Part shown: positions 23,262-35,702 of the stretch, piece by piece
Layout: each line of letters opens with the position of its first letter
Numbering within the stretch: the stretch's first letter is position 1
DNA from: Rhodovulum sp. P5
GTDB taxonomy: Bacteria; Pseudomonadota; Alphaproteobacteria; Rhodobacterales; Rhodobacteraceae
Assembly (NCBI RefSeq): GCF_002079305.1
Contig: NZ_CP015039.1
Coordinates: forward strand, 3,395,501-3,459,500
DNA: 64,000 bases
Reading direction: 5' to 3'
Translations under genes and position numbers: made by a program
Notes under the pieces: generated by a model
Told to the model about the DNA's origin: nothing
The model's database searches: none
Seen by the model: the letters and a program-made list of their open reading frames with translations, nothing else

Positions 23262-24307
23262 TCCTGTGCTCCGGTAGGGACGGCGACGCTCCACCAGCGT
23301 TGGGCGGACGACGGGTTTCTGCTCCAAGTAAAATGTGTTGATTCGGTAAGCTTTCTCCTAACGTCGACCGGTTTGCGCGGGCTGCTTGGAGGGAGCATCA
23401 TGAATGACTCGCGCTTACGCGGGACTCTGACTCTGCTCGGCAAACGCGCGCCTAAGCTCGGCAGTTCGTTGCCCACAGAGCAAAGGCATCAAGCGCGGAG
23501 ACCTCAAATATCGCAGCGCTTGATGCCTTTGCGGTCAACCGTCCCACTGGCCGCCAAGCTCGAGTTTTTCTGGCAGGTATTCATAAGGTACGACTTGTGT
23601 CGCCAATTCCATCCCGGATGGCGCGAGGCGTCTTCGCTCGCATATAGGGGCGCCAAAGAAGTCACGGACAGGACTAATGCCTGTGTGATCGGGCACTTAT
23701 GGGCATCTAACGTCGATCCATTCCCGGCATTCGCTGCGCCGATGCCGAAATGGGAGGTCGGTGGACGGGACTGCCGGCCGCTGCGAGTGGTCGATTTATG
23801 CCGCTGCCGCGAGGGAGCCGGAAGGATGGGCGGGAACCAGACATTCGCCGCGAATGCGAACCATGAATGCGGCAATCGATGTAGGAGACACTCGCAAGAC
23901 GCGGCTGCAGTCCTTCATTCCGGACCGCCCCGAGGTGGCTCTAGAGCCCATTCTTCCTCACCGCGCGGACGCAGCACTTCGCAAGCGCAGCGATTCGTTG
24001 ATGGTAAAGCCGACCCCTTCCGCTCGTAAGACTGGCCACTCAGTACGGCAGCGCAATTTACGCATAGCAGCAATCCCTCAATTCCAAGGAATCTCGAGAA
24101 ACGATCCAGAGTGATCTCGATCGCAAGCACCGCATGACCCGTTGCCATCGAAATTGGTCGTACTGTCGTTCATCGTCGCACTCGCCGCGATGTTCTTGCC
24201 AGAAGTAAAGGCCGAGATTATTCAATCGAGCATCGCATTGCTTCTGTCATGACATGGTTCCACAGGGTTAGTAGCTGAGATCACCACAGAAGTGGGAGAC
24301 TTTCGGA
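23262..24307. other. 1-kb stretch without a convincing gene
   Basis: Short open frames occur here on both strands (for example 23504-23875 minus and 23761-24114 plus), but their translations are rich in Pro/Arg/Ser and show no domain. They also lack good ribosome-binding sites. Base composition is lower in GC than the neighbours, especially near 24050-24280. It holds the strong hairpin at 23480-23532. It may be degraded mobile or intergenic-repeat DNA. It marks the boundary between the sox/chemotaxis region and the accessory genes. Confidence 0.5.
23480..23532. repeat. Perfect 17-bp inverted repeat (hairpin)
   Basis: GCAAAGGCATCAAGCGC at 23480-23496 is exactly complementary to 23516-23532, with a 19-nt spacer. 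Neither arm is followed by a clear T-run, so it is not a standard intrinsic terminator. It could be a folded RNA element, the terminus of a lost small element, or a recombination site. It lies about 220 bp upstream of the chemotaxis receptor start, on the opposite side of its likely promoter. Confidence 0.75.
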
Positions 24308-25216
24308 ATGGGTAGCATTCGAAAACGGGTCGGGCTGTTTTTGACGATCGCCGCAGCGGCACCGTTCGCATTCCCGATCTCCGCTGCCGCGGGCGGCTGC
24401 ACCTTCCGCGGGGAAATCGTCTACGCCGAGGACTTCCCAAGAATCGTGATCGACCGGGCCGATCCCGAGCATGGCGGTCAGGCTCTCGGTCCGCACGCCC
24501 CTCTTTACCCCGGCGATGTGCTGCTGGTGCAGGGTGATCAGGTCGCCTGGATCCGGGACGAGCCCGGGGGCGATCTGCGCGAAATCACCGCCGGCGACGG
24601 CCGTGTAACCATCGGCCAGCCCGAGACCTGCGACGTCCACGCCGGTTTCGCGGTGACACTCCGCGGACTTTATGCCTCGCTCAACGCCATCATCGGCGGC
24701 CCCGTGACCGATCAGCCGATTGTTACTTATCCGCGGCGCGGCGACCCTGCCCCAGGCGGCCTGAAGCTTGCCTTTGGGGACGGACAACTGCTGGCGGCCG
24801 GTACAGAGTTCCTGAGCGTCAGTTGGACCGGGCTCGACGCGGAGGTGGCCCTCAGGTCAACGACCGACGACACCGTTCTCATCAATCTGCGCAGCGCAGG
24901 CGTGCCCCTTGTCGAGGGGGCCATCGAACGCCCGCTGCAGCCGGGCGAGGCGCTGCGCCTGGAGTTCGAGACCGAGAAGGGGCGGGTCACACGCACGATC
25001 CGCGTCGTGCCGCGGGGCGATCTTCCAAAGCCGGCGGGCGTGGAGAGCCTTGACGATCTCACACCGGCCGAGGCCACGATCTACGCGATCTGGCTCGCCA
25101 CCGAGGGTCCGCCCGAATGGCGCCTGCAAGGCATGAGCCTGCTCGCCCGGGCCGCCCGGGACGACTACATGGCCTGGAAGGTGCTTCGCGGGCTGCGATC
25201 CGAGCCTCCAGGATGA
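24308..25216 (+). CDS. Predicted secreted protein of unknown function, upstream of TPR-CHAT gene
   Basis: The protein has 302 residues. An N-terminal signal peptide runs to about residue 28 (VGLFLTIAAAAPFAFPISAAA). The next 100 residues are beta-rich and contain two cysteines (GGCTFRGE and PETCDV) that could pair. The segment YPGDVLLVQGDQVAWIRDEPG is reminiscent of FecR-type domains, but that is only a resemblance. Another beta-rich section (about 150-235) follows, then a helical C-terminus (LDDLTPAEATIYAIWLATEG). It ends 58 bp before the TPR-CHAT gene on the same strand, so the two are probably one transcription unit and may act together. Confidence 0.75.
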   Translation: MGSIRKRVGLFLTIAAAAPFAFPISAAAGGCTFRGEIVYAEDFPRIVIDRADPEHGGQALGPHAPLYPGDVLLVQGDQVAWIRDEPGGDLREITAGDGRVTIGQPETCDVHAGFAVTLRGLYASLNAIIGGPVTDQPIVTYPRRGDPAPGGLKLAFGDGQLLAAGTEFLSVSWTGLDAEVALRSTTDDTVLINLRSAGVPLVEGAIERPLQPGEALRLEFETEKGRVTRTIRVVPRGDLPKPAGVESLDDLTPAEATIYAIWLATEGPPEWRLQGMSLLARAARDDYMAWKVLRGLRSEPPG

Positions 25217-25274
25217 TCTCTTTCTTTAAGCGCCAGGCCGGAGGCGTCCTGGTCCAATGAGGTAGGTGGTTGCG

Positions 25275-28200
25275 ATGGTAAGAGTTCTGCTGATTGCCAG
25301 CATCGTCCTGTTGGGGATTTCGTCGGCCCGAGCTCAGGACCTGGCGACCGAGTGGTCCGCCGGAAACGCGGCTGCTGTGCAGGCTTACCGCGATGGTGAC
25401 TACACCACAGCGCTGGACCTTGCCCGGCAGATGCTTGTTCTGGCGGAAGCGGCGTTCGGGCCGGAGCATCCCGATACCCTTCGGAGCGTGAACAACCTTG
25501 CGGTTCTCTATCAGAGCACCGGTCGCTACGAGGACGCGGAGCCGCTCTTTCGCCGCGTGCTGGAGGCCCAGGAGCGCGTGCTCGGGCCGGAGCATTCCGA
25601 TACCCTGATCAGCGCGAACAACCTTGCGGCTTACTATGAGGCCACCGGTCGCTACGAAGAAGCGAAGCCTCTCTTTCGCCGCGTGCTGGAGACCCGCGAG
25701 CGCGTGCTCGGGCCGGAGCATTCCGATACGCTCATGAGCGTGAACAACCTCGCGTTTCTCTACTTAAGAACCGGTCGCTACGGGGACGCGGAGGTGCTCT
25801 TTCGCCGCGCGCTGGAGGCCCAGGAGCGCGTGCTCGGGCCGGAACATTCCGATACTCTGGTCAGCGTGATCAACCTCGCGACTCTCTATGAGGCCACCGG
25901 TCGCTACGGGGAGGCGGAGCCGCTCTTCCGCCGCGCGCTGGAGGCGTCCGAGCGCGTGCTCGGGCAGGAGCATCCCTTTACCCTGAGCAGCGGAAGGAGC
26001 CTCGCGGGTCTCTATCAGGCCACCGGGCGCTACGGGGACGCGGAGGTGCTCTTTCGCCGCGCGCTGGAGGCCCGCGAGCGCGTGCTCGGGCCGGAGCATC
26101 CCGAAACCATCGGGAGTGTGCACAGCCTCGCGGGTCTCTATCAGGCCACCGGTCGCTACGGGGAGGCAGAGCCGCTCTATCGCCGCGCACTGGAGGCGTT
26201 CGAGCGCGTGCTCGGACCGGAGCATCCCGATACCCTGGGCATCGTGAACAACCTCGCGTTGTTCTATCAGGCCACCGGTCGCTACGGGGAGGCAGAGCCG
26301 CTCTTTCGCCGCGCGCTGGAGGCGTTCGAGCGGGCGCTCGGGCCGGAGCATCCCGATACCCTGACCAGCGTGAACAACCTCGCGGCTCTCTATCAGGCCA
26401 CCGGTCGCTACGGGGAGGCAGAGCCGCTCTATCGCCGCGCGCTGGAGGCGCGCGAGCGCGTGCTCGGGCCGGAGCATCCCGATACCCTGACCAGCGTGAA
26501 CAACCTCGCGTTTCTCTATCACCCCACCGGTCGCTACGGGGAGGCAGAGCCGCTCTTTCGCCGCGCGCTGGAGGCGTTCGAGCGGGCGCTCGGGCCGGAG
26601 CATCCCGATACCCTGACCAGCGTGAACAACCTCGCGGGTCTCTATGAGGCCACCGGTCGCTACGAGGACGCGGAGCCGCTCTATCGCCGGGCGCTGGAGG
26701 CCCGCGAACGCGTGCTCGGGCCGGAGCATCCCGATACCCTGACCAGCGTGAACAACCTCGCGGGTCTCTATGAGGCCACCGGTCGCTACGGGGAGGCGGA
26801 GCCGCTCTATCGCCGCGCGAAGGAGGCGTTCGAACGCGTGCTCGGGTCAGAGCATCCCGTTACCCTGCGCAGCGTGAACAACCTCGCGGGTCACTATGCG
26901 GCCACCGGTCGCTACGGGGAAGCGGAGCCGCTCTACCGCCGCGCGCTGGAGGCGTCCGAGCGGGTGCTCGGGCCGGAACATCCCAATACGCTGACCATCG
27001 TGAACAGCCTTGCCGCGCTTCGGATCGCGCAGGGCAGACCTGCCGAGGCTGCAGCGATCCTTGAGCAGGGTGTTATTGCCTCCGGTCGTTGGGCCGGGCA
27101 GGAGGCCGATTCCGCGTCCGGGGCGGGGCAGCGGCGCGCGGCGCTGGAGCGGGCGGGAACGTCGGCTGCTGCAGCCCTGGCGCTGGCGGCGCAGGCGCCG
27201 TCGGCTGAAACGGCGGACCTGGCGGCGCTGGTGGTCTTGAACCGCAAGGGGTTGGCCGGGGAGCGGGAGGCGGCGCTCCTTAGGCTTGCCCGGTCGGCCG
27301 AGACCGAGGAAGCGCGGCGGATCGCGACGGAACTGCTGGTCGCGCGGCGAAATCTGACCGCAGCTTTTCGGCAAGTCGCCTTCGGCGACGGCGGGGCGGC
27401 CGCCGAGCAGATCTTCCAGCTGGCGACCGAGCGCGTGGACGGGCTGGAACGGGATCTCGCGCTTGCCGATCCGACCTACCGCGCCCCCCGTGACATCACC
27501 GCCGAGGCGGTCACGGCGTCGCTGCCGCCGGGCGCGGCGCTGATCGACTACACGCTCTTCACACCCTATGATTTCGAAACGCGCATCTGGGCAGAGGACC
27601 GACATGTGGGCGCGGTGGTTCTGCGCCCGGGCGCGACGGCGGTGTTCGTTGACCTCGGGCCACTGGCCGAGATCCAGCCTGCAATCGAGAATCTGGGCGC
27701 GACGCTCGGCATGGGGGACCGGGGCAAGATCGCCGGGATGACGCTGCATCGGGCGCTGCTGGCGCCGCTCGACGCGCATATCGCCGGAGCGGAGACCCTC
27801 TTCATCTCGCCCGCGGGCCCGCTCGGGCTGATCCCCTTCGACATGCTGCGGACATCGCCGTCGGACCAGTCGACCCTGGCCGCCTCCGGTCCCGCGATCA
27901 GGCTTCTGGCCACCGGCCGGGCCTTGGTTGCCAAGGCGCCCGAAGTGACGGGACAGGGTCTCGTCGCCTTTGGCGCCATCGACTATGAGCAGGCGGGTGG
28001 CAGCACGTCGACATCCGCGGACACAGCTGAGACGCTTCTGGCGCTCGTCGAACGAGCCCGGGCATCGGACGTCGCTTCCATGATCCAGGCGGGCGGGCAG
28101 CAGGACTTCGCTCCGTTGGCGCATACGGCTGTGGAGATCGACGCCATCGCACGGATCTGGCGCGAGGCGGGCGGCGACACGGCGGACCTCTACATCGGCG

Positions 28201-28739
28201 CGAACGCCCGGGAAGCGCGTCTGACCTCACTGACCACCGCCCCCAGAGCGCTGCACCTCGCCACCCATGGCTTCGTCAAGGAGACGGAAGCGGCGGGCGC
28301 GCGCGCGGCGCTGCTGACGGGCATCGCACTGGCCGGCGCCAATCGGATGGCTGAGACGGAGACCAGTAGTGCCAGTGGTGACGGCGTCCTCTTCGGCTAC
28401 GAGATCGAACCCCTGGACCTGGCGCGAACCGAGCTGGTGGTGGTCTCGGCCTGCGAGACGGGCCTTGGCCGGGTCGATACGACCGAGGGTGTCTACAGCT
28501 TGGCGCGCGGCTTTCGGCTGGCGGGCGCAGGCGCGGTGTTGGTGACGCTGAAGCAGATCGACGATGCGCTGACGGCGGATTTCATGGCGGACTTCTACCA
28601 GGCTTGGCTCAGCACTCCGGGAACCACGCCCACGCAGGCGCTCAAATTCACCAAGCAGAATTGGGCCAAGAGTTCCGATCCCCGCCGGAGCCGCTCCAGC
28701 ACCTGGGCCGCCTTCATTCTCATCGAAAACAGGGTGTGA
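25275..28739 (+). CDS. Secreted TPR-CHAT (caspase-like) protein
   Basis: The start is ATG 25275 with GAGGT 11 bp upstream; a GTG at 25266 is alternative. The protein has 1154 residues: signal peptide (VRVLLIASIVLLGISSARA), twelve 42-residue kinesin-light-chain-type TPR units (residues 62-565), a helical linker, and a C-terminal CHAT protease domain from about 850. The CHAT region shows FISPAGPLGLIPFDML, catalytic H998 in LHLATHGF and catalytic C1060 in VVSACETGLG, so the dyad is intact. CHAT proteases are clan CD, related to caspases and separase. A signal peptide would place this one outside the cytoplasm, unlike CRISPR-linked TPR-CHAT. The substrate is unknown. Confidence 0.92.
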   Translation: MVRVLLIASIVLLGISSARAQDLATEWSAGNAAAVQAYRDGDYTTALDLARQMLVLAEAAFGPEHPDTLRSVNNLAVLYQSTGRYEDAEPLFRRVLEAQERVLGPEHSDTLISANNLAAYYEATGRYEEAKPLFRRVLETRERVLGPEHSDTLMSVNNLAFLYLRTGRYGDAEVLFRRALEAQERVLGPEHSDTLVSVINLATLYEATGRYGEAEPLFRRALEASERVLGQEHPFTLSSGRSLAGLYQATGRYGDAEVLFRRALEARERVLGPEHPETIGSVHSLAGLYQATGRYGEAEPLYRRALEAFERVLGPEHPDTLGIVNNLALFYQATGRYGEAEPLFRRALEAFERALGPEHPDTLTSVNNLAALYQATGRYGEAEPLYRRALEARERVLGPEHPDTLTSVNNLAFLYHPTGRYGEAEPLFRRALEAFERALGPEHPDTLTSVNNLAGLYEATGRYEDAEPLYRRALEARERVLGPEHPDTLTSVNNLAGLYEATGRYGEAEPLYRRAKEAFERVLGSEHPVTLRSVNNLAGHYAATGRYGEAEPLYRRALEASERVLGPEHPNTLTIVNSLAALRIAQGRPAEAAAILEQGVIASGRWAGQEADSASGAGQRRAALERAGTSAAAALALAAQAPSAETADLAALVVLNRKGLAGEREAALLRLARSAETEEARRIATELLVARRNLTAAFRQVAFGDGGAAAEQIFQLATERVDGLERDLALADPTYRAPRDITAEAVTASLPPGAALIDYTLFTPYDFETRIWAEDRHVGAVVLRPGATAVFVDLGPLAEIQPAIENLGATLGMGDRGKIAGMTLHRALLAPLDAHIAGAETLFISPAGPLGLIPFDMLRTSPSDQSTLAASGPAIRLLATGRALVAKAPEVTGQGLVAFGAIDYEQAGGSTSTSADTAETLLALVERARASDVASMIQAGGQQDFAPLAHTAVEIDAIARIWREAGGDTADLYIGANAREARLTSLTTAPRALHLATHGFVKETEAAGARAALLTGIALAGANRMAETETSSASGDGVLFGYEIEPLDLARTELVVVSACETGLGRVDTTEGVYSLARGFRLAGAGAVLVTLKQIDDALTADFMADFYQAWLSTPGTTPTQALKFTKQNWAKSSDPRRSRSSTWAAFILIENRV
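25458..26969 (+). repeat. Twelve tandem 126-bp repeats encoding TPR units
   Basis: Each unit encodes GPEHPDTLxSVNNLAxLY, then xATGRYGEAEPLYRRALEAxERVL. Boundaries fall exactly every 126 bp from 25458 to 26969. Units 7 to 11 are nearly identical in DNA, while units 1-5 and 12 are more diverged. That points to recent expansion or gene conversion in the middle of the array. The repeats are coding and in frame. Confidence 0.95.
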
Positions 28740-28983
28740 GGGACAGGAAATGGCGAGGGAGGACTCAAGCAGCGCAACGTCGGCACCCTCTGTGCTCAAC
28801 GAGGCGGTAGAGCGCGTACGGCGAACGGTGGGTTCGTCCGCGTCTCGGGATCCTTTCAAATGCTGCGGCCTGCAGGAATGACCGGTTCGGTGAAGCTGCA
28901 CTGCAGCGTCAGCGGCCAAGATGGAAGTCCGAAAAGGGCCGTCATCCAAAATCATCGAGGCCACGCCATCGCGGATCAACCAT

Positions 28984-31032
28984 CTATTTTCGCAAGGCGT
29001 GGCGTCGGGCGATCCAGGACGGCAGCACCGCGCGAAGCGTTGTACCATCCCCGCCCTTGGCGATCAGTCCAATGTCGCGCAGGACACGCTTGTCGTCAGC
29101 AGCCAGCGACTTTGCCGGCCAGGATTGTCGGGTCGCCGCCACGAGGTCGTCGAAGCCTGTCGCCCAATCCCGCAGGCCGTCTTCGTTGAGCGCGGCAAGC
29201 GCGTGGGCTGTGGTCTCCGGGTCGCCGGCGTCATCGTCGGCGAGGTTGGCCTGCACAACAACGAACTCCATCAGCTGATCGAGCGCGCCTTGGCCCGGAA
29301 ACTCGATTCCGCCGACCAGCGCTCCCAGCCAGGCCTCCGGCTCGGTTTCCAGCGGTGTGATCGCCAGCGCTGCGAGATAGCCGTGAAGATAGGCCTCGGT
29401 CATCCCGGCATGCGCGAGAAGAGAACCGACCCCATCCTGCTCTTCGCGTCGTGGCACCGGCGCAGCATTCCCTTCGTGCTCGGAATGAGCTTCCAACGTC
29501 ATCGCCACGATCTCGGCCATGATCGGGATGCGCTTGAGCGGCCGACCGTCCAGAAGCGCCTGCGCCACCGCGGCGAATGACAGCCAGAGCATCGGGTGCA
29601 CCTCACTCGCGGCCTTCAGAGTCGTCGCCGAAACCGCGAAATGCCGTGCCCACCAGTCCCGCCGGGTCCCGAGGTGTTTCCAGACAGCGGCTTCGCGCCC
29701 CTTGTCCGTGCGCGCCCGCGTGATGGCGGCGCGGAGCGTGCCGGTATCCACGAACCAGCTATCGGCCTGATCGAAGAACTCGATCCAGTCGGCGCTGGCC
29801 TTCACAAGCTCGGTGCGGTGGGCCGCCGGAAGGCCGGCGAGCGTCTCGGCCGCGCCGATGGACGCAAGAATGTCCTCGGTCTCCGCAGCGGCGGGGATCA
29901 GCGCAGCGAGGCCAAGGCGTTCGGCCAGCTCCACTATCCCGGGCGCGGGCAGGCGCCCAAGAGCCAGGCCCTCACCAAGACCGCGCGCCAGAGCCGCGGC
30001 CAGCGCATCGGGCGAGATGTCGAAGGTTTCGATCTCGTCCAGGACGCCAGCGAGCATCTGCCTTTGCTCGGTTGCGCTTGAGCACGGGATGATAAAGGCA
30101 TCCTTCACACCGTGGCCCTGCTTCAGCATTGCCATCGCTACGCCGCGACGGCTGCCGGTCTGGACGGCCGCGATCAGGCTCTGAGCGCCGGCGCCATCCG
30201 GCAGGCTGGCGGCGGCCCGGTGAATCTTTGCGGTGGGCGCCCCGGTCTGTGCCATGCCGCCGCGCATCTGACACCGGATTGCCCCGTCGAGGCTGGCGCG
30301 GGTGGAATCGTCGGGCAGCCACTTCCGGATGGCGGGGAGAAGCGCGGCAAGGTCCGGGTCCAGCAGCCCTGCCTCAGCGCGGGACAGGAGCGCCGTCGCG
30401 GCGGCAAGGCGGAGATCCGCTTGAGGATCCAGCAGCCAGTAGAGCCCGAGCCGCGCCTCCACAGCGCCGGGCCGCGCGAGGATCATGGAAACCAGCATGG
30501 CGGCAAGCTCGGCCGGCAGCCCCGCGAGGAGTTCGCCCAGTGCGGCATGGACCTGCAGGGGCTCATCGCCAATCTCCTCCAGGATTGGGTCGAGCAATGC
30601 ATTGAGGTCGGGCATGTCCTCGGAGGCGGCTCCGGCCTCCGCCATGACATCGGCGGTCAGGGTGGCGAAGAGCGGCGGCGCCAGGCCCGCGCGAGCATAG
30701 ATCCGGGCCAGTCGGAGACGCTGGGCCGGCGCGAGCGGCTGAGTGGAATCCTGCGCGGTGATCGCGGCGGCGACGGCGTCGAGCAGCGCGGCGCCCTCGG
30801 GCGCGTCGTTCTCCGCGGCCATGCGGGCCTCGTCGAGTGCGCTGGACAGGAGCGCCGCAGCCGCCTGCGTCGTGGCATCGTCCTCTGGGTCCGCGGCGGT
30901 AGCGGCCACATTTGCAATGGTCGCGGGATTGGCCAGCAGGACGCGGGCGCCGTCTCGGAGCAGGCGGGTATGGGTCGCGTCATCCGGAGCGTTGGCGATG
31001 GCGTCAATCAGGGGCTTGGATGTATCGGTCAT
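28984..31032 (-). CDS. Large Ala-rich protein with UPF0149/YecA-like C-terminal part
   Basis: ATG 31032 (MTDTSKPLIDAIANAP) is preferred to a TTG at 31068. The protein has 682 residues, with no signal peptide or membrane segment. Residues 1-400 are Ala/Leu-rich helices, possibly HEAT-like. Near the C-terminus, LLAHAGMTEAYLHGYLAALAITP and EAWLGALVGG match the opening of UPF0149/YecA proteins, whose function is unknown. It is convergent with the TPR-CHAT gene (244 bp between stops). The left IS copy begins 128 bp upstream of its start, so its original promoter may have been displaced. Confidence 0.7.
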   Translation of the reverse strand: MTDTSKPLIDAIANAPDDATHTRLLRDGARVLLANPATIANVAATAADPEDDATTQAAAALLSSALDEARMAAENDAPEGAALLDAVAAAITAQDSTQPLAPAQRLRLARIYARAGLAPPLFATLTADVMAEAGAASEDMPDLNALLDPILEEIGDEPLQVHAALGELLAGLPAELAAMLVSMILARPGAVEARLGLYWLLDPQADLRLAAATALLSRAEAGLLDPDLAALLPAIRKWLPDDSTRASLDGAIRCQMRGGMAQTGAPTAKIHRAAASLPDGAGAQSLIAAVQTGSRRGVAMAMLKQGHGVKDAFIIPCSSATEQRQMLAGVLDEIETFDISPDALAAALARGLGEGLALGRLPAPGIVELAERLGLAALIPAAAETEDILASIGAAETLAGLPAAHRTELVKASADWIEFFDQADSWFVDTGTLRAAITRARTDKGREAAVWKHLGTRRDWWARHFAVSATTLKAASEVHPMLWLSFAAVAQALLDGRPLKRIPIMAEIVAMTLEAHSEHEGNAAPVPRREEQDGVGSLLAHAGMTEAYLHGYLAALAITPLETEPEAWLGALVGGIEFPGQGALDQLMEFVVVQANLADDDAGDPETTAHALAALNEDGLRDWATGFDDLVAATRQSWPAKSLAADDKRVLRDIGLIAKGGDGTTLRAVLPSWIARRHALRK

Positions 31033-31159
31033 GCTGGCAGAGTTACGGCACCGGGTAAAACATGCCAACTACCACACCGCATGGCGATACGTCCGAACTG
31101 CCGCATCTGGATCGCGCAACCCGGGACAGGGCTGCCGTAGCAGGCCGAGATGCTGCATG

Positions 31160-33055
31160 CTCAAGTTCACCAGTAAAACGCGTAAGTGATTGATATCGTT
31201 ATGGCGAGATTGGCCAAAATGTAACTACGCGAGGGTGATCAGGCGGGTTTTGGCAGGTTCAGGGTGTCGAAGAGGTCCAGTTGTTCGGGGGTCGGGGTGG
31301 TGAGGCCGTCGAGCTTTCGGTCGGCGATCCGGGCTTCGTGGCGGTGGATGCGCGCGAGCATGTCGAGGGCGGTTCGTGGGCTGGCGTCATGTCCTTTTGC
31401 CTTCAGCCGCATGCGCATGACGCGGTAGAGGACGAGGGCGAGAAAGCAGATCAGCGCGTGGGCGCGGATGCGGTCGGGCAGCCGATGGTGGACGGGGGCG
31501 ATCTCGATATCGGATTTCAGGACGCGGAAGCCGCGTTCGATATCGGCCAGCGACTTGTAGCGGGTCACGGTTGCGGTCGGCGTCAGGTCGGGGGCATTGG
31601 TCAGCAGGGCGAGCTTGCCGTCGAAGAGTTCGGCTCGGGCGACGGCGTCTTCGTCGATGCTGTAGCTGAACCGGTCGGCCTGCAGGTCTGCCTTGAGGAA
31701 CCGGGTCAGTTCGGCCTCGGCCACGGCGCGCGTGAAGCGGCTATAGGCGCCGCGGTCGGAGGCGCGGCGGCCCCGCGCCGTCTGGCCGTCGTCTTGCGCA
31801 TCGAGCTTGGCGACCATCTTTTCGGCCTGGGCTTCAAGTTCGGCGATGCGGGCGCGACGTCGTTCGGATTGGTCGGCGGCTCGAACGGGATCATGGGCGA
31901 CGATCAGGCGATGGCCGGCAAAATTGCTTTCCGCCAGGCCGCCTTCGTCGAAGGCAAGGCCCCGAAAGGTCTCGACCAGATCGGCATAGCGACGGGCGGG
32001 GACGGCGAGGATGAACTCCAGCTTGCGGTCGTCCTGATCGGCCAGGGCGGTCAGTTCGTCGATGTTTTCAAGGCTGAGCAGGCCACGGTCGGCGACCAGG
32101 ATGACACGCTGCACGGGAAACCGCTGCAACACCGTCTGCAGCATGCCCTGCAGGGTTTTCGTCTCCCCGACATTGCCGGGGTGGACCGTGTGCATGAGCG
32201 GCAGGCCGTCGGCGGTTTGCACGACGCCGAGCACGAATTGCCGGGCGATGCCACCGGTTTCCTTGTTCATGCCATAGGCGCGGAGGTCGTCGTCAACCTC
32301 TCCGTCGCCATGGATGCGCACCGTGGTCAGGTCGTAGAAGACCACGGCCAGGTCCCGATCGACCAGCGGACGGATTTGTCTGGCCAGTTCCATCTCGACC
32401 CGCTCGGCATGGTCCATCAGCGCATCCATGGCGCGGAGCAGATGTTGATGCGTGACGGTGTCCGGCATCGCGGGCATCGCGACCGTTTCCAGCCAGCGCA
32501 GGCAGCCCAGCTTGCTTGTGGGGTCGCACAACCGATTGAACACCATGGCGCGGACCAGCGCCTCCACGTCGACTTTCCGCTTGCCGGAACGCAGCGCACG
32601 GCCGAGGGCATGATCGAAACCAAGGTCCTTCCACAACTCGTGCAGGGCAAAGACGTCGCCATAGCTGCGCGCCGCCTCGTAGGTGATCTCGGCCTTCTCG
32701 GGCTCGACCCGACCCGCGGCGCGACTGAGCCCCCGGATCAGCGCATCGAGCTGGCCATCCTTCATCCCGTCCACGCGCCCCAGATTGGCCACGACGCGCA
32801 GCCGGGGCTTGCCCGCCTCGTTACGGAAGGACTCGACAATCTGCAGATAGCGACGCCCGCCGCTCTCGGTGATGCGCGTGAACATGGCATGCAGGATATC
32901 GCACGTTTGGGCGCATTCATAGGGTCTTAAACATCATAACGTGTAACTACACGACTTCGGCCGAACTGCCCACCTCGCGCGCCTTAAGCTATTGAAATCC
33001 CATACCTGCGCTGAACGCGCTCACGCAGATTCCCCCGGATTTTGTCGAAGTTCGG
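31160..33055 (-). mobile_element. IS1634-like element, left copy (1896 bp)
   Basis: This unit is repeated as an exact-looking inverted copy at 33807-35702. Outward identity stops at both ends, so 1896 bp is the duplicated unit. Reading inward, the ends begin CTCAAGTTCACCAG (outer) and CCGAACTTCGACA (inner). They are imperfectly similar and both start with C, plausible terminal repeats. Subterminal TGTARYTACRCG motifs lie nearer the gene (around 31220 and 32950). No 5-6 bp target duplication is evident. It carries one DDE transposase gene. Confidence 0.85.
31239..32885 (-). CDS. IS1634-family (IS4-like) DDE transposase, left copy
   Basis: The protein has 548 residues and is full length. It opens MFTRITESGGRRYLQIVESF, typical of IS1634-family transposases. 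Catalytic residues by position are D185 (VVFYDLTTVRIH), D266 (VILVADRGLLS) and E450 (SLADIERGFRVLKSDIE). A Lys/Arg-rich helix at about 340-380 precedes the last catalytic block. The stop is 79 bp from the outer end of the element and the start 170 bp from the inner end. The translation is identical to the gene at 33977, so this is a very recent duplication and probably an active element. Confidence 0.95.
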   Translation of the reverse strand: MFTRITESGGRRYLQIVESFRNEAGKPRLRVVANLGRVDGMKDGQLDALIRGLSRAAGRVEPEKAEITYEAARSYGDVFALHELWKDLGFDHALGRALRSGKRKVDVEALVRAMVFNRLCDPTSKLGCLRWLETVAMPAMPDTVTHQHLLRAMDALMDHAERVEMELARQIRPLVDRDLAVVFYDLTTVRIHGDGEVDDDLRAYGMNKETGGIARQFVLGVVQTADGLPLMHTVHPGNVGETKTLQGMLQTVLQRFPVQRVILVADRGLLSLENIDELTALADQDDRKLEFILAVPARRYADLVETFRGLAFDEGGLAESNFAGHRLIVAHDPVRAADQSERRRARIAELEAQAEKMVAKLDAQDDGQTARGRRASDRGAYSRFTRAVAEAELTRFLKADLQADRFSYSIDEDAVARAELFDGKLALLTNAPDLTPTATVTRYKSLADIERGFRVLKSDIEIAPVHHRLPDRIRAHALICFLALVLYRVMRMRLKAKGHDASPRTALDMLARIHRHEARIADRKLDGLTTPTPEQLDLFDTLNLPKPA

Positions 33056-33159: not shown

Positions 33160-33175
33160 ATAAACGATCGTTTAT
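33160..33175. repeat. 16-bp perfect palindrome at the end of the HEPN-like gene
   Basis: ATAAACGATCGTTTAT is fully self-complementary and overlaps the stop codon of the minus-strand gene (33172-33174). It is AT-rich at the ends and lies in the short core between the two IS copies. It might be a regulator or recombinase site or a terminator stem. No poly-T follows. Confidence 0.6.
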
Positions 33176-33756
33176 GGCCCTATCTTCTTCGTCAGCTCGT
33201 GGCTGAGTTCTTCGATCACGTCGGCAAACTCCCGTACCACGGAATCTCGAATTAGAAGGCGTTGCCCTGCGGCGTAGGTCTTGTCGCCGCTTCGATCAAT
33301 GTAGTCCTGATCCACGATACCCTGCTGATGCGCGAGAAGATGGCGCTGCTGAAAATAAATCTTGAGCTGGTCAAGTTTGGCCTGGCCAATCAAATCGACA
33401 TAGGCATGTCCAATCTCGGCCTTCCACAAGTCCGAACCCACATCGAGATTCTGGAAGGCATTGCGGCGGGCCGTCTTGCCGCTCTGACGTTCATACAGCT
33501 GCTCGTTTAACCTCTGGAACGACATTACCGTGTCCTGGATCGCCTTTTCCAAAAGTGTGCGGATCATCACCTCGGCCTCATCTGGGCCGAGTGTATTCCG
33601 TAGAGTTTCGCCAAGTCCCGCAGCGGTGCGGATCGTGTTCAAGGTTTGCGTGAAGGTATGGCTTGCAGAGTTCTCCCCACAGCTCGGGCAGAAATATGCA
33701 GCGCCAACGTAGGAATAGCGGCAACCGCAGCTCTCGCAGGTTGTACGCAGCCGCAT
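33172..33756 (-). CDS. Zinc-ribbon plus HEPN-like protein (putative nuclease)
   Basis: The reading frame is open back to a TTG at 33870, but that part lies in the IS end. ATG 33756 (MRLRTTCESCGC) starts right at a zinc ribbon and is preferred, giving 194 residues; GTG 33780 is another option. The ribbon has two CxxC knuckles (CESCGC and FCPSCGEN). A helical domain then ends with QQRHLLAHQQGIVDQDYI, where R-x4-H fits the HEPN RNase motif. HEPN proteins with this motif often act as toxins or in phage defence. This role is inferred only from the motif. The gene is the sole cargo between the IS copies. Confidence 0.65.
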   Translation of the reverse strand: MRLRTTCESCGCRYSYVGAAYFCPSCGENSASHTFTQTLNTIRTAAGLGETLRNTLGPDEAEVMIRTLLEKAIQDTVMSFQRLNEQLYERQSGKTARRNAFQNLDVGSDLWKAEIGHAYVDLIGQAKLDQLKIYFQQRHLLAHQQGIVDQDYIDRSGDKTYAAGQRLLIRDSVVREFADVIEELSHELTKKIGP

Positions 33757-33806
33757 CGGCTCGGCTGCTGCTACTGGCACAAGTACGGCGTCCCGTCCGC
33801 CTTTCA

Positions 33807-35702
33807 CCGAACTTCGACAAAATCCGGGGGAATCTGCGTGAGCGCGTTCAGCGCAGGTATGGGATTTCAATAGCTTAAGGCGCGCGAGGTGGGCAGTTCG
33901 GCCGAAGTCGTGTAGTTACACGTTATGATGTTTAAGACCCTATGAATGCGCCCAAACGTGCGATATCCTGCATGCCATGTTCACGCGCATCACCGAGAGC
34001 GGCGGGCGTCGCTATCTGCAGATTGTCGAGTCCTTCCGTAACGAGGCGGGCAAGCCCCGGCTGCGCGTCGTGGCCAATCTGGGGCGCGTGGACGGGATGA
34101 AGGATGGCCAGCTCGATGCGCTGATCCGGGGGCTCAGTCGCGCCGCGGGTCGGGTCGAGCCCGAGAAGGCCGAGATCACCTACGAGGCGGCGCGCAGCTA
34201 TGGCGACGTCTTTGCCCTGCACGAGTTGTGGAAGGACCTTGGTTTCGATCATGCCCTCGGCCGTGCGCTGCGTTCCGGCAAGCGGAAAGTCGACGTGGAG
34301 GCGCTGGTCCGCGCCATGGTGTTCAATCGGTTGTGCGACCCCACAAGCAAGCTGGGCTGCCTGCGCTGGCTGGAAACGGTCGCGATGCCCGCGATGCCGG
34401 ACACCGTCACGCATCAACATCTGCTCCGCGCCATGGATGCGCTGATGGACCATGCCGAGCGGGTCGAGATGGAACTGGCCAGACAAATCCGTCCGCTGGT
34501 CGATCGGGACCTGGCCGTGGTCTTCTACGACCTGACCACGGTGCGCATCCATGGCGACGGAGAGGTTGACGACGACCTCCGCGCCTATGGCATGAACAAG
34601 GAAACCGGTGGCATCGCCCGGCAATTCGTGCTCGGCGTCGTGCAAACCGCCGACGGCCTGCCGCTCATGCACACGGTCCACCCCGGCAATGTCGGGGAGA
34701 CGAAAACCCTGCAGGGCATGCTGCAGACGGTGTTGCAGCGGTTTCCCGTGCAGCGTGTCATCCTGGTCGCCGACCGTGGCCTGCTCAGCCTTGAAAACAT
34801 CGACGAACTGACCGCCCTGGCCGATCAGGACGACCGCAAGCTGGAGTTCATCCTCGCCGTCCCCGCCCGTCGCTATGCCGATCTGGTCGAGACCTTTCGG
34901 GGCCTTGCCTTCGACGAAGGCGGCCTGGCGGAAAGCAATTTTGCCGGCCATCGCCTGATCGTCGCCCATGATCCCGTTCGAGCCGCCGACCAATCCGAAC
35001 GACGTCGCGCCCGCATCGCCGAACTTGAAGCCCAGGCCGAAAAGATGGTCGCCAAGCTCGATGCGCAAGACGACGGCCAGACGGCGCGGGGCCGCCGCGC
35101 CTCCGACCGCGGCGCCTATAGCCGCTTCACGCGCGCCGTGGCCGAGGCCGAACTGACCCGGTTCCTCAAGGCAGACCTGCAGGCCGACCGGTTCAGCTAC
35201 AGCATCGACGAAGACGCCGTCGCCCGAGCCGAACTCTTCGACGGCAAGCTCGCCCTGCTGACCAATGCCCCCGACCTGACGCCGACCGCAACCGTGACCC
35301 GCTACAAGTCGCTGGCCGATATCGAACGCGGCTTCCGCGTCCTGAAATCCGATATCGAGATCGCCCCCGTCCACCATCGGCTGCCCGACCGCATCCGCGC
35401 CCACGCGCTGATCTGCTTTCTCGCCCTCGTCCTCTACCGCGTCATGCGCATGCGGCTGAAGGCAAAAGGACATGACGCCAGCCCACGAACCGCCCTCGAC
35501 ATGCTCGCGCGCATCCACCGCCACGAAGCCCGGATCGCCGACCGAAAGCTCGACGGCCTCACCACCCCGACCCCCGAACAACTGGACCTCTTCGACACCC
35601 TGAACCTGCCAAAACCCGCCTGATCACCCTCGCGTAGTTACATTTTGGCCAATCTCGCCATAACGATATCAATCACTTACGCGTTTTACTGGTGAACTTG
35701 AG
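33807..35702 (+). mobile_element. IS1634-like element, right copy (1896 bp)
   Basis: This is the inverted counterpart of 31160-33055, of equal length. Transposase spacing is identical (170 bp from the inner end, 79 bp to the outer end), and even the antisense open frames translate identically. The two copies enclose a 751-bp core (33056-33806). Together they span 4543 bp and have the geometry of a composite transposon. Flanking bases 33802-33806 and 35703-35707 do not match, so no simple target duplication is seen. Confidence 0.85.
33977..35623 (+). CDS. IS1634-family (IS4-like) DDE transposase, right copy
   Basis: The 548-residue translation is identical to the minus-strand transposase at 31239-32885, with the same D185, D266, E450 triad. 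The start ATG 33977 follows TGCATGCC within the element, 170 bp from its inner end. As both copies are intact, transposase could act on the outer ends together and move the whole 4.5-kb unit, or on either copy alone. Confidence 0.95.
   Translation: MFTRITESGGRRYLQIVESFRNEAGKPRLRVVANLGRVDGMKDGQLDALIRGLSRAAGRVEPEKAEITYEAARSYGDVFALHELWKDLGFDHALGRALRSGKRKVDVEALVRAMVFNRLCDPTSKLGCLRWLETVAMPAMPDTVTHQHLLRAMDALMDHAERVEMELARQIRPLVDRDLAVVFYDLTTVRIHGDGEVDDDLRAYGMNKETGGIARQFVLGVVQTADGLPLMHTVHPGNVGETKTLQGMLQTVLQRFPVQRVILVADRGLLSLENIDELTALADQDDRKLEFILAVPARRYADLVETFRGLAFDEGGLAESNFAGHRLIVAHDPVRAADQSERRRARIAELEAQAEKMVAKLDAQDDGQTARGRRASDRGAYSRFTRAVAEAELTRFLKADLQADRFSYSIDEDAVARAELFDGKLALLTNAPDLTPTATVTRYKSLADIERGFRVLKSDIEIAPVHHRLPDRIRAHALICFLALVLYRVMRMRLKAKGHDASPRTALDMLARIHRHEARIADRKLDGLTTPTPEQLDLFDTLNLPKPA

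Follow-up and report, generated by a model that had tools for sequence, protein, structure and literature searches.

A TPR-CHAT protein with a signal-peptide-like start and its orphan neighbour in Rhodovulum sp. P5: a possible envelope pair

Does a caspase-like protease that seems to leave the cytoplasm work together with the product of the gene in front of it? The question is raised by a stretch of 64,000 nucleotides from the 4.47 Mb genome of Rhodovulum sp. P5 (C1:3395501-3459500, here called the window, to which all positions refer unless a contig is named). In it, a gene for a TPR-CHAT protein of 1154 residues (25275..28739, + strand; open reading frame (ORF) list, Pfam scan and start-site reading) follows, on the same strand, a gene for a 302-residue protein of an orphan family (24308..25216, + strand; ORF list and family scans), which we call the partner for brevity. 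A preliminary description, made from the letters of the DNA, had reported both ORFs and the 58 bp that separate them, which agrees with our reading, and had proposed an envelope protease with its regulator or substrate, in contrast with TPR-CHAT proteases such as Csx29, which act in the cytoplasm. We find that the observation is sound, that the location is less surprising than was claimed, and that a functional pair is a fair hypothesis, as yet unproven. What can be seen directly is the sequence anatomy of the two proteins, an intact catalytic dyad, the pattern of cysteines and the adjacency on one strand.

The domain order of the larger protein is signal peptide, TPR array and C-terminal CHAT domain. 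The predicted signal peptide takes up residues 1-20 (25275..25334, +), with a probable cleavage site SSARA/Q according to a home-made rule described below. It is followed by twelve TPR units of the kinesin-light-chain type, of 42 residues each, encoded by a tandem array (25456..27010, +) that is also evident at the DNA level, with a period of 126 bp, 12.3 copies and 86% matches. Pfam recognizes twelve to thirteen TPR stretches (559 bits for TPR_12) and one CHAT domain (PF12770) at residues 820-1150 (27732..28724, +), the latter scoring 174 bits against a curated cut-off of 24, and the best match of the array among solved structures is kinesin light chain 1 (E value 3.1e-53). The near identity of the units suggests a recent expansion or homogenisation, and their copy number may differ between strains. 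By eye, the units of the best homologue (P0009) are more diverged than the twelve of the window. The putative catalytic residues His998 (28266..28268, +) and Cys1060 (28452..28454, +) show no variation across an alignment of 22 CHAT domains (that of the window plus 21 others taken from genomes of the family), where they make up two of the seven invariant columns (alignment positions H179 and C241). Cys1060 is also the sole cysteine of the 1154 residues. The two residues of the dyad lie at the positions that had been given for them before. By its sequence the protein belongs to the CHAT peptidase family PF12770, and proteolytic activity is predicted. No internal membrane segment was seen in it, the highest hydropathy over any later 19 residues being 1.34.

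When a profile of the CHAT domains of the family was compared with the PDB, the best solved match was 8rot (E value 1.4e-17), and separase was matched as well. The entries 8rot and 8rw5 hold a "CHAT domain-containing protein" of 991 residues, known here by its depositors' name alone, whose His and Cys motifs align with those of the profile. The profile also matched, with E values from 1.8e-4 to 5.4e-3, chains deposited as "CHAT domain protein" or as "TPR-CHAT", which we take to be mostly Craspase entries.

What is new here is the partner, whose family is unnamed and very rare. It had been described as a second signal-peptide-like protein without a known family, and indeed not one family of Pfam, NCBIfam or PADLOC matched it; a Pfam scan of all eight members gave two matches, each to a single member (E values 0.013 and 1.7). 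The searches covered 5.77 billion proteins, with those of 0.55-1.75 times the query length as candidates and the 8000 with the most words in common scored in each, and detected 7 relatives besides the partner itself (45-71% identical, longest contigs 1.6-6.5 kb); a profile search gave the same set. Behind a predicted signal peptide of about 28 residues (24308..24391, +; same rule, probable cleavage site), the mature protein can be divided in three. The N-terminal part from C31 to C108 (24398..24631, +) is conserved, with a mean pairwise identity of 0.67 over residues 31-110, and so is a C-terminal motif at residues 241-296 (YAxWLxxxGPxxWxLQG...YxAWKxxR; 25028..25195, +), with 0.68. Between them, residues 111-240 (24638..25027, +) are the most variable portion, with an identity of 0.45 for both residues 111-150 and residues 151-240. 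A helix-like hydrophobic moment exceeds the strand-like one only in segments from residue 273 onward. From this pattern of conservation we infer that the two conserved parts serve as framework or for docking, with a variable part for recognition between them, the C-terminal motif being the candidate for docking. The sequence in the window has exactly two cysteines, C31 and C108, and since both are invariant in 8 of 8 aligned members a disulfide is suggested, which fits export. Taken together, a single catalytic cysteine in the protease and an invariant pair of cysteines in the partner fit an oxidising compartment. We have considered the partner as a lipoprotein and judged this unlikely by eye: none of the 8 rows has a leucine at -3, and the residue at -1 (before C31) is E in 2 of 8, the others being G in 4, S in 1 and A in 1.

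Both genes have plausible starts. The ATG of the partner has GGGAG 9 nt ahead of it. For the TPR-CHAT gene a GTG at 25266 would give 1157 residues, but it falls inside AGGTGG (25264-25269), a ribosome-binding-like sequence that precedes the ATG at 25275, and for this reason we prefer the latter and the length of 1154 residues. A terminator scan found no terminator-like site in the 58 bp between the stop codon of the partner (ending at 25216) and this ATG, and the G+C content at third positions is alike in the two genes (0.78 and 0.81-0.82).

How unusual is the export of such a protein? Our home-made rule for Sec signals asks for a hydrophobic core, a basic n-region and an A-x-A-like site at fixed starts; its genome form also selects among start codons, and the background count applies to this form only. 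The N-termini of both proteins pass the rule. Its genome form lets through 121 of 299 background genes as well (those of 200 codons or more in the same stretches), or 86 of 299 when those with later membrane segments are excluded. Six of the seven other partner relatives pass as well, the miss (P0003) being a 290-residue form that starts later. On the CHAT side, the four best-scoring homologues (P0009-P0012) all pass, as do 71 of the 120 homologues listed, not all of them with TPRs, under the fixed-start rule, a figure that has no background count of its own. Of the 38 CHAT genes that the gene caller gave for genomes of this family, 29 pass the genome form (background 121/299), both numbers including one clearly wrong call of 118 residues (L072). 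Entries named "CHAT domain-containing protein" from several sources share the exported-looking start and the dyad, and have other neighbours. To judge from these starts, exported CHAT proteins appear to be an ordinary and widely present class. We know of no signal peptide in Csx29, the TPR-CHAT protease with which the protein was contrasted, but signal-peptide-like starts are so frequent among the CHAT proteins of the family that this contrast is not in itself surprising, and the envelope location as an anomaly was not borne out.

A search of 290 genomes of the family for the CHAT domain gave hits in 44 at an E value of 0.001, with 41 above the cut-off. In the genome of P5 itself there is a second, weak match (C1:3583317-3583619, 1.8e-4), in an open frame of 1295 residues. 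We surveyed the neighbours at 45 of 72 CHAT places (the strongest, in genomes other than P5), 7 of which the gene caller missed. A close neighbour on the same strand (within 120 bp) that passes the genome rule was found for 12 of the 29 CHAT genes called exported, which is an upper figure, as some of the neighbours counted as exported resemble household or membrane proteins. Ten neighbours, not all among the 12 and two of them (L059 and L072) placed by a cruder method, were scanned for families. They included a rhodanese in two genera, a trypsin, a C14 caspase, an exoprotein with a TPS domain, a DUF900 hydrolase and a FecR protein (L049, 23.7 bits against a Pfam cut-off of 24); the remaining three had no family above cut-off. 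Exported CHAT proteins would thus be encoded each time beside a different exported companion, a context in which the pair of the window makes sense. By the same token, the companions vary so much among exported CHAT genes that adjacency by itself is poor evidence of a partnership.

Some arrangements in the survey recur. In two genera (L075 and L038) an exported-looking rhodanese-like gene lies upstream of a CHAT gene of about 1100 residues, at 5 and 136 bp respectively (the second beyond the 120-bp limit of the count), a repeated pairing in which the two rhodanese-like proteins have a near-identical C-terminus. In four others (L058, L064, L066 and L069, each from a different genus) an exported-looking gene of 475-502 residues overlaps by 4 bp the stop of a CHAT gene of about 550 residues, and a like gene follows the CHAT gene of L072 with an overlap of 1 bp; the two of these 475-502-residue followers that were scanned had no Pfam family above cut-off. 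In L071 one exported-looking CHAT gene follows another in tandem, the two overlapping by 4 bp. In L043 and L047 a lipoprotein-like CHAT gene lies immediately behind a gene of 2546 and 2459 residues, respectively, the former of which carries a TPS secretion domain.

The reading that we favour, if tentatively and at rather less than an even chance, is that of an envelope CHAT protease, most likely periplasmic, with a dedicated exported cofactor or substrate. Partner and TPR-CHAT protein would be made from one transcript and would both leave the cytoplasm through Sec. The protease would then use its TPR superhelix to recruit the partner or a client protein, and its CHAT domain, through H998 and C1060, would make a limited cut. 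The partner, held by its putative C31-C108 disulfide, would dock, probably via the conserved C-terminal motif, and turn its variable middle part towards a ligand or client; it could act as a cofactor or be the substrate that is cut. Part of what had been proposed at the outset stands, in that export is plausible, the dyad is intact and the use of cysteines fits.

There is a precedent for such an arrangement. Csx29, a TPR-CHAT protease with the dyad H615/C658, cuts Csx30 once, csx30 lies upstream in its locus, and Csx30 is recognized through its C-terminal domain (PMC10028731). The likeness of the locus to Csx29 and the Craspase described there consists of the TPRs, the CHAT domain with its His/Cys dyad and a client that is the product of a neighbouring gene (PMC10028731). 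However, Csx29 works with an RNA-guided effector, and none was recognized here; the TPRs of the present protein are of the 42-residue kinesin-light-chain type, unlike those of Csx29; and the partner is likened to Csx30 by its possible role, not by sequence. Nor was there a Cas7-11/csx30 context: PADLOC gave no family of the clustered regularly interspaced short palindromic repeats (CRISPR) systems for four proteins of the locus, and no cas-like gene was recognized by eye in the ORF lists of the window outside 50-64 kb.

Several results weigh against the favoured reading. The pair was observed in one genome only. Neither the partner nor the C-terminal part of the TPR-CHAT protein had a match in 15 congeners, and the partner was found in no genome but its own among 295 of the family, 385 of the class, 398 of the phylum and 16 of the genus (partly overlapping samples, with the first few candidates per genome scored in the class and phylum profile searches). 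Searches of viral, plasmid and phage collections gave no match to it either. The C-terminal CHAT half had no other match at an E value of 1e-20 in 279 genomes sampled from the class, its own included, and distant matches (<60% identity) to it occur in 26 plasmid records, e.g., of Shinella and Paracoccus versutus. Its best homologues among the matches listed are P0009 (53% identity, across residues 600-1154), P0010 (47%), P0011 (43%) and P0012 (38%), with longest contigs of 8.7, 6.4, 70 and 9.6 kb. About three of these four would be expected to share a contig with a partner if the pair were conserved and detectable (our own arithmetic, which assumes a random position of the gene on the contig). 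Contigs compared by size gave none common to the partner relatives and the CHAT relatives listed (120 of 163). The four nearest CHAT genes being mostly on contigs long enough to hold an upstream gene, the result argues against deep conservation of the pair. It does so from the CHAT side, because the list of partners holds that of the window itself (P0001). From the partner side the test misses even the pair of the window, whose CHAT protein is outside the 120 listed, and it would overlook any broken CHAT gene on the partner contigs, which are short, so that a pair within the narrow partner family is still compatible with the result. As regards transcription, a promoter scan found no sigma-70-like site ahead of the partner, which leaves the shared transcript without positive evidence, and the genome form of our export rule is permissive, as its background count tells. 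On the whole, a pairing conserved across genomes was not demonstrated, and the evidence leans against deep conservation.

Could the partner belong to a known family after all? One lead came from an exact search word of 8 residues, followed by a contig scan in which a single one of the 49 candidate stretches screened passed, namely a DUF4384 gene of a Bacteroidetes metagenome-assembled genome (L004 1336-2181). Its product is 43% identical to the partner over 61 aligned columns (partner residues 212-262); of 2000 shuffles 1 did as well in the anchored extension past the seed, and of 1000 shuffles 42 did as well in the local score with the seed masked. We then compared the partner family by hhalign with a DUF4384 profile made of 27 stretches (L080-L106, of which L094 looks wrongly framed) plus L004. 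The score of 20.7 was above all 40 column-shuffled controls (highest 16.4), but the probability was 2% over 16 columns, and 0 of 8 members match DUF4384 (PF14326), which was rejected as an identity. The link appears at most a weak lead. The DUF4384 gene of L004 has in common with the partner gene that a caspase-like sequence is nearby, in its case a C14-caspase-like ORF one gene away. An identity as a FecR-like protein (PF04773) was also rejected, with no match in any of the 8 members and no resemblance to L049, the single FecR-bearing neighbour of a CHAT gene that was compared, and the partner resembled neither the caspase beside the CHAT gene of L072 nor the 236-residue protein of L062.

The pair adjoins a variable patch of the genome. 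Its upstream side has genes for SoxC-like, cytochrome c and thioredoxin-like proteins, with a chemotaxis-receptor-like gene on the other strand; the SoxC-like protein is 70-76% identical to plasmid copies from Paracoccus, Rhodobacter and Ruegeria (eight best matches). The stretch at 23328-24307, previously described as a non-coding flank, has only short or overlapping ORFs (e.g., of 117 and 123 residues), and a non-coding nature is plausible. It is not a long repeated element: apart from the self-match, its sequence (23330-24300) gave two short matches, of 63 and 53 bp, one of which falls within the stretch. Downstream of the pair is a UPF0149-like gene (28984-31068, 694 residues; Pfam), present in 3 of 15 congeners and in one of them 95% identical in a different gene context (L118 16664-18748), the similarity ending at 28895 and 31160. 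By eye, the gene of this congener is near an integrase-like fragment. A DDE-transposase element of 1896 bp is present in two copies, exact and inverted (31160-33055 and 33807-35702), which together are composite-transposon-like; the first copy has its outer end at 31160, the second of the limits just given. The approximately 750 bp between the copies hold most of a small gene (33172-33870) with a weak, sub-cut-off zinc-ribbon match. Mobile elements are near the pair, as had been noted, but they do not flank it directly, as the UPF0149-like gene intervenes. No empty site was obtained; the loci of two of the three congeners were compared with the window and share with it only the UPF0149-like gene and its edges.

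Nearly as likely as the favoured reading is its chief rival, that the two genes are unrelated neighbours, the TPR-CHAT protein acting alone or with partners encoded elsewhere and the 302-residue exported protein being adjacent by chance in a variable stretch. This would agree with the outcome of the comparison of contigs, with the different neighbours that CHAT genes have in different genera, and with surroundings so variable that the closest copy of the UPF0149-like gene sits in another context. It agrees less with the short same-strand gap free of a terminator-like site, with the fact that both genes were not found in the same 15 congeners, with the exported look of both proteins and with their similar third-position G+C.

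Two other explanations are less likely than either of these. The protein might be an envelope scaffold, or a factor of cell division or of the cell wall, in which proteolysis is secondary and the partner helps to localise it, in the manner of HetF of Anabaena/Nostoc, a membrane-associated protein with CHAT and TPRs and a role in cell division and heterocysts (PMC8406250). A near-identical array of 12 TPR units would suit scaffolding. But in HetF, as described, the CHAT part comes first (aa 1-555), and there are a membrane segment and TPRs (PMC8406250), while the protein of the window has the order signal peptide, TPR, CHAT and no internal membrane segment that we could see, on which grounds we rejected it as a HetF; its occurrence in 1 of 16 genomes of the genus misfits a core division factor and, besides, the dyad is intact. 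We consider this improbable. Even less credit can be given to a cassette against phages or competitors, in which damage to the envelope would activate the protease and the cell would be killed or shielded. The patchy distribution and the nearby transposase elements would be in keeping with it, and among defence systems, Borvo and type III-E CRISPR are listed as having CHAT proteases (PMC10952713). However, neither protein matched a PADLOC family at an E value of 1, the only nearby PADLOC match is that of the UPF0149-like gene, which is weak (E value 0.0048), and no defence gene was recognized by eye in the same ORF lists; the lack of partner matches in the viral, plasmid and phage collections points in the same direction.

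It is conceivable, though we would call it rather unlikely, that the pair follows the Csx29-Csx30 principle in the periplasm, as a two-gene switch for envelope signalling or damage response, and that it is one of many such modules across this bacterial family, every exported CHAT protease having a different exported protein as its companion. Among CHAT proteins, those on which we found experiments in print are Csx29, with its RNA-guided complex, and the membrane protein HetF; on exported TPR-CHAT proteins, no open-access (PMC) paper was found by title or by the opening of the abstract, in a search that leaves most of the subscription literature outside. If it is true that many CHAT proteins are exported, there would be a large group of caspase-like proteases in the envelope for which no substrate was found in print, and this locus, whose protease has a single cysteine and whose partner has some 270 mature residues, offers a small and testable pair.

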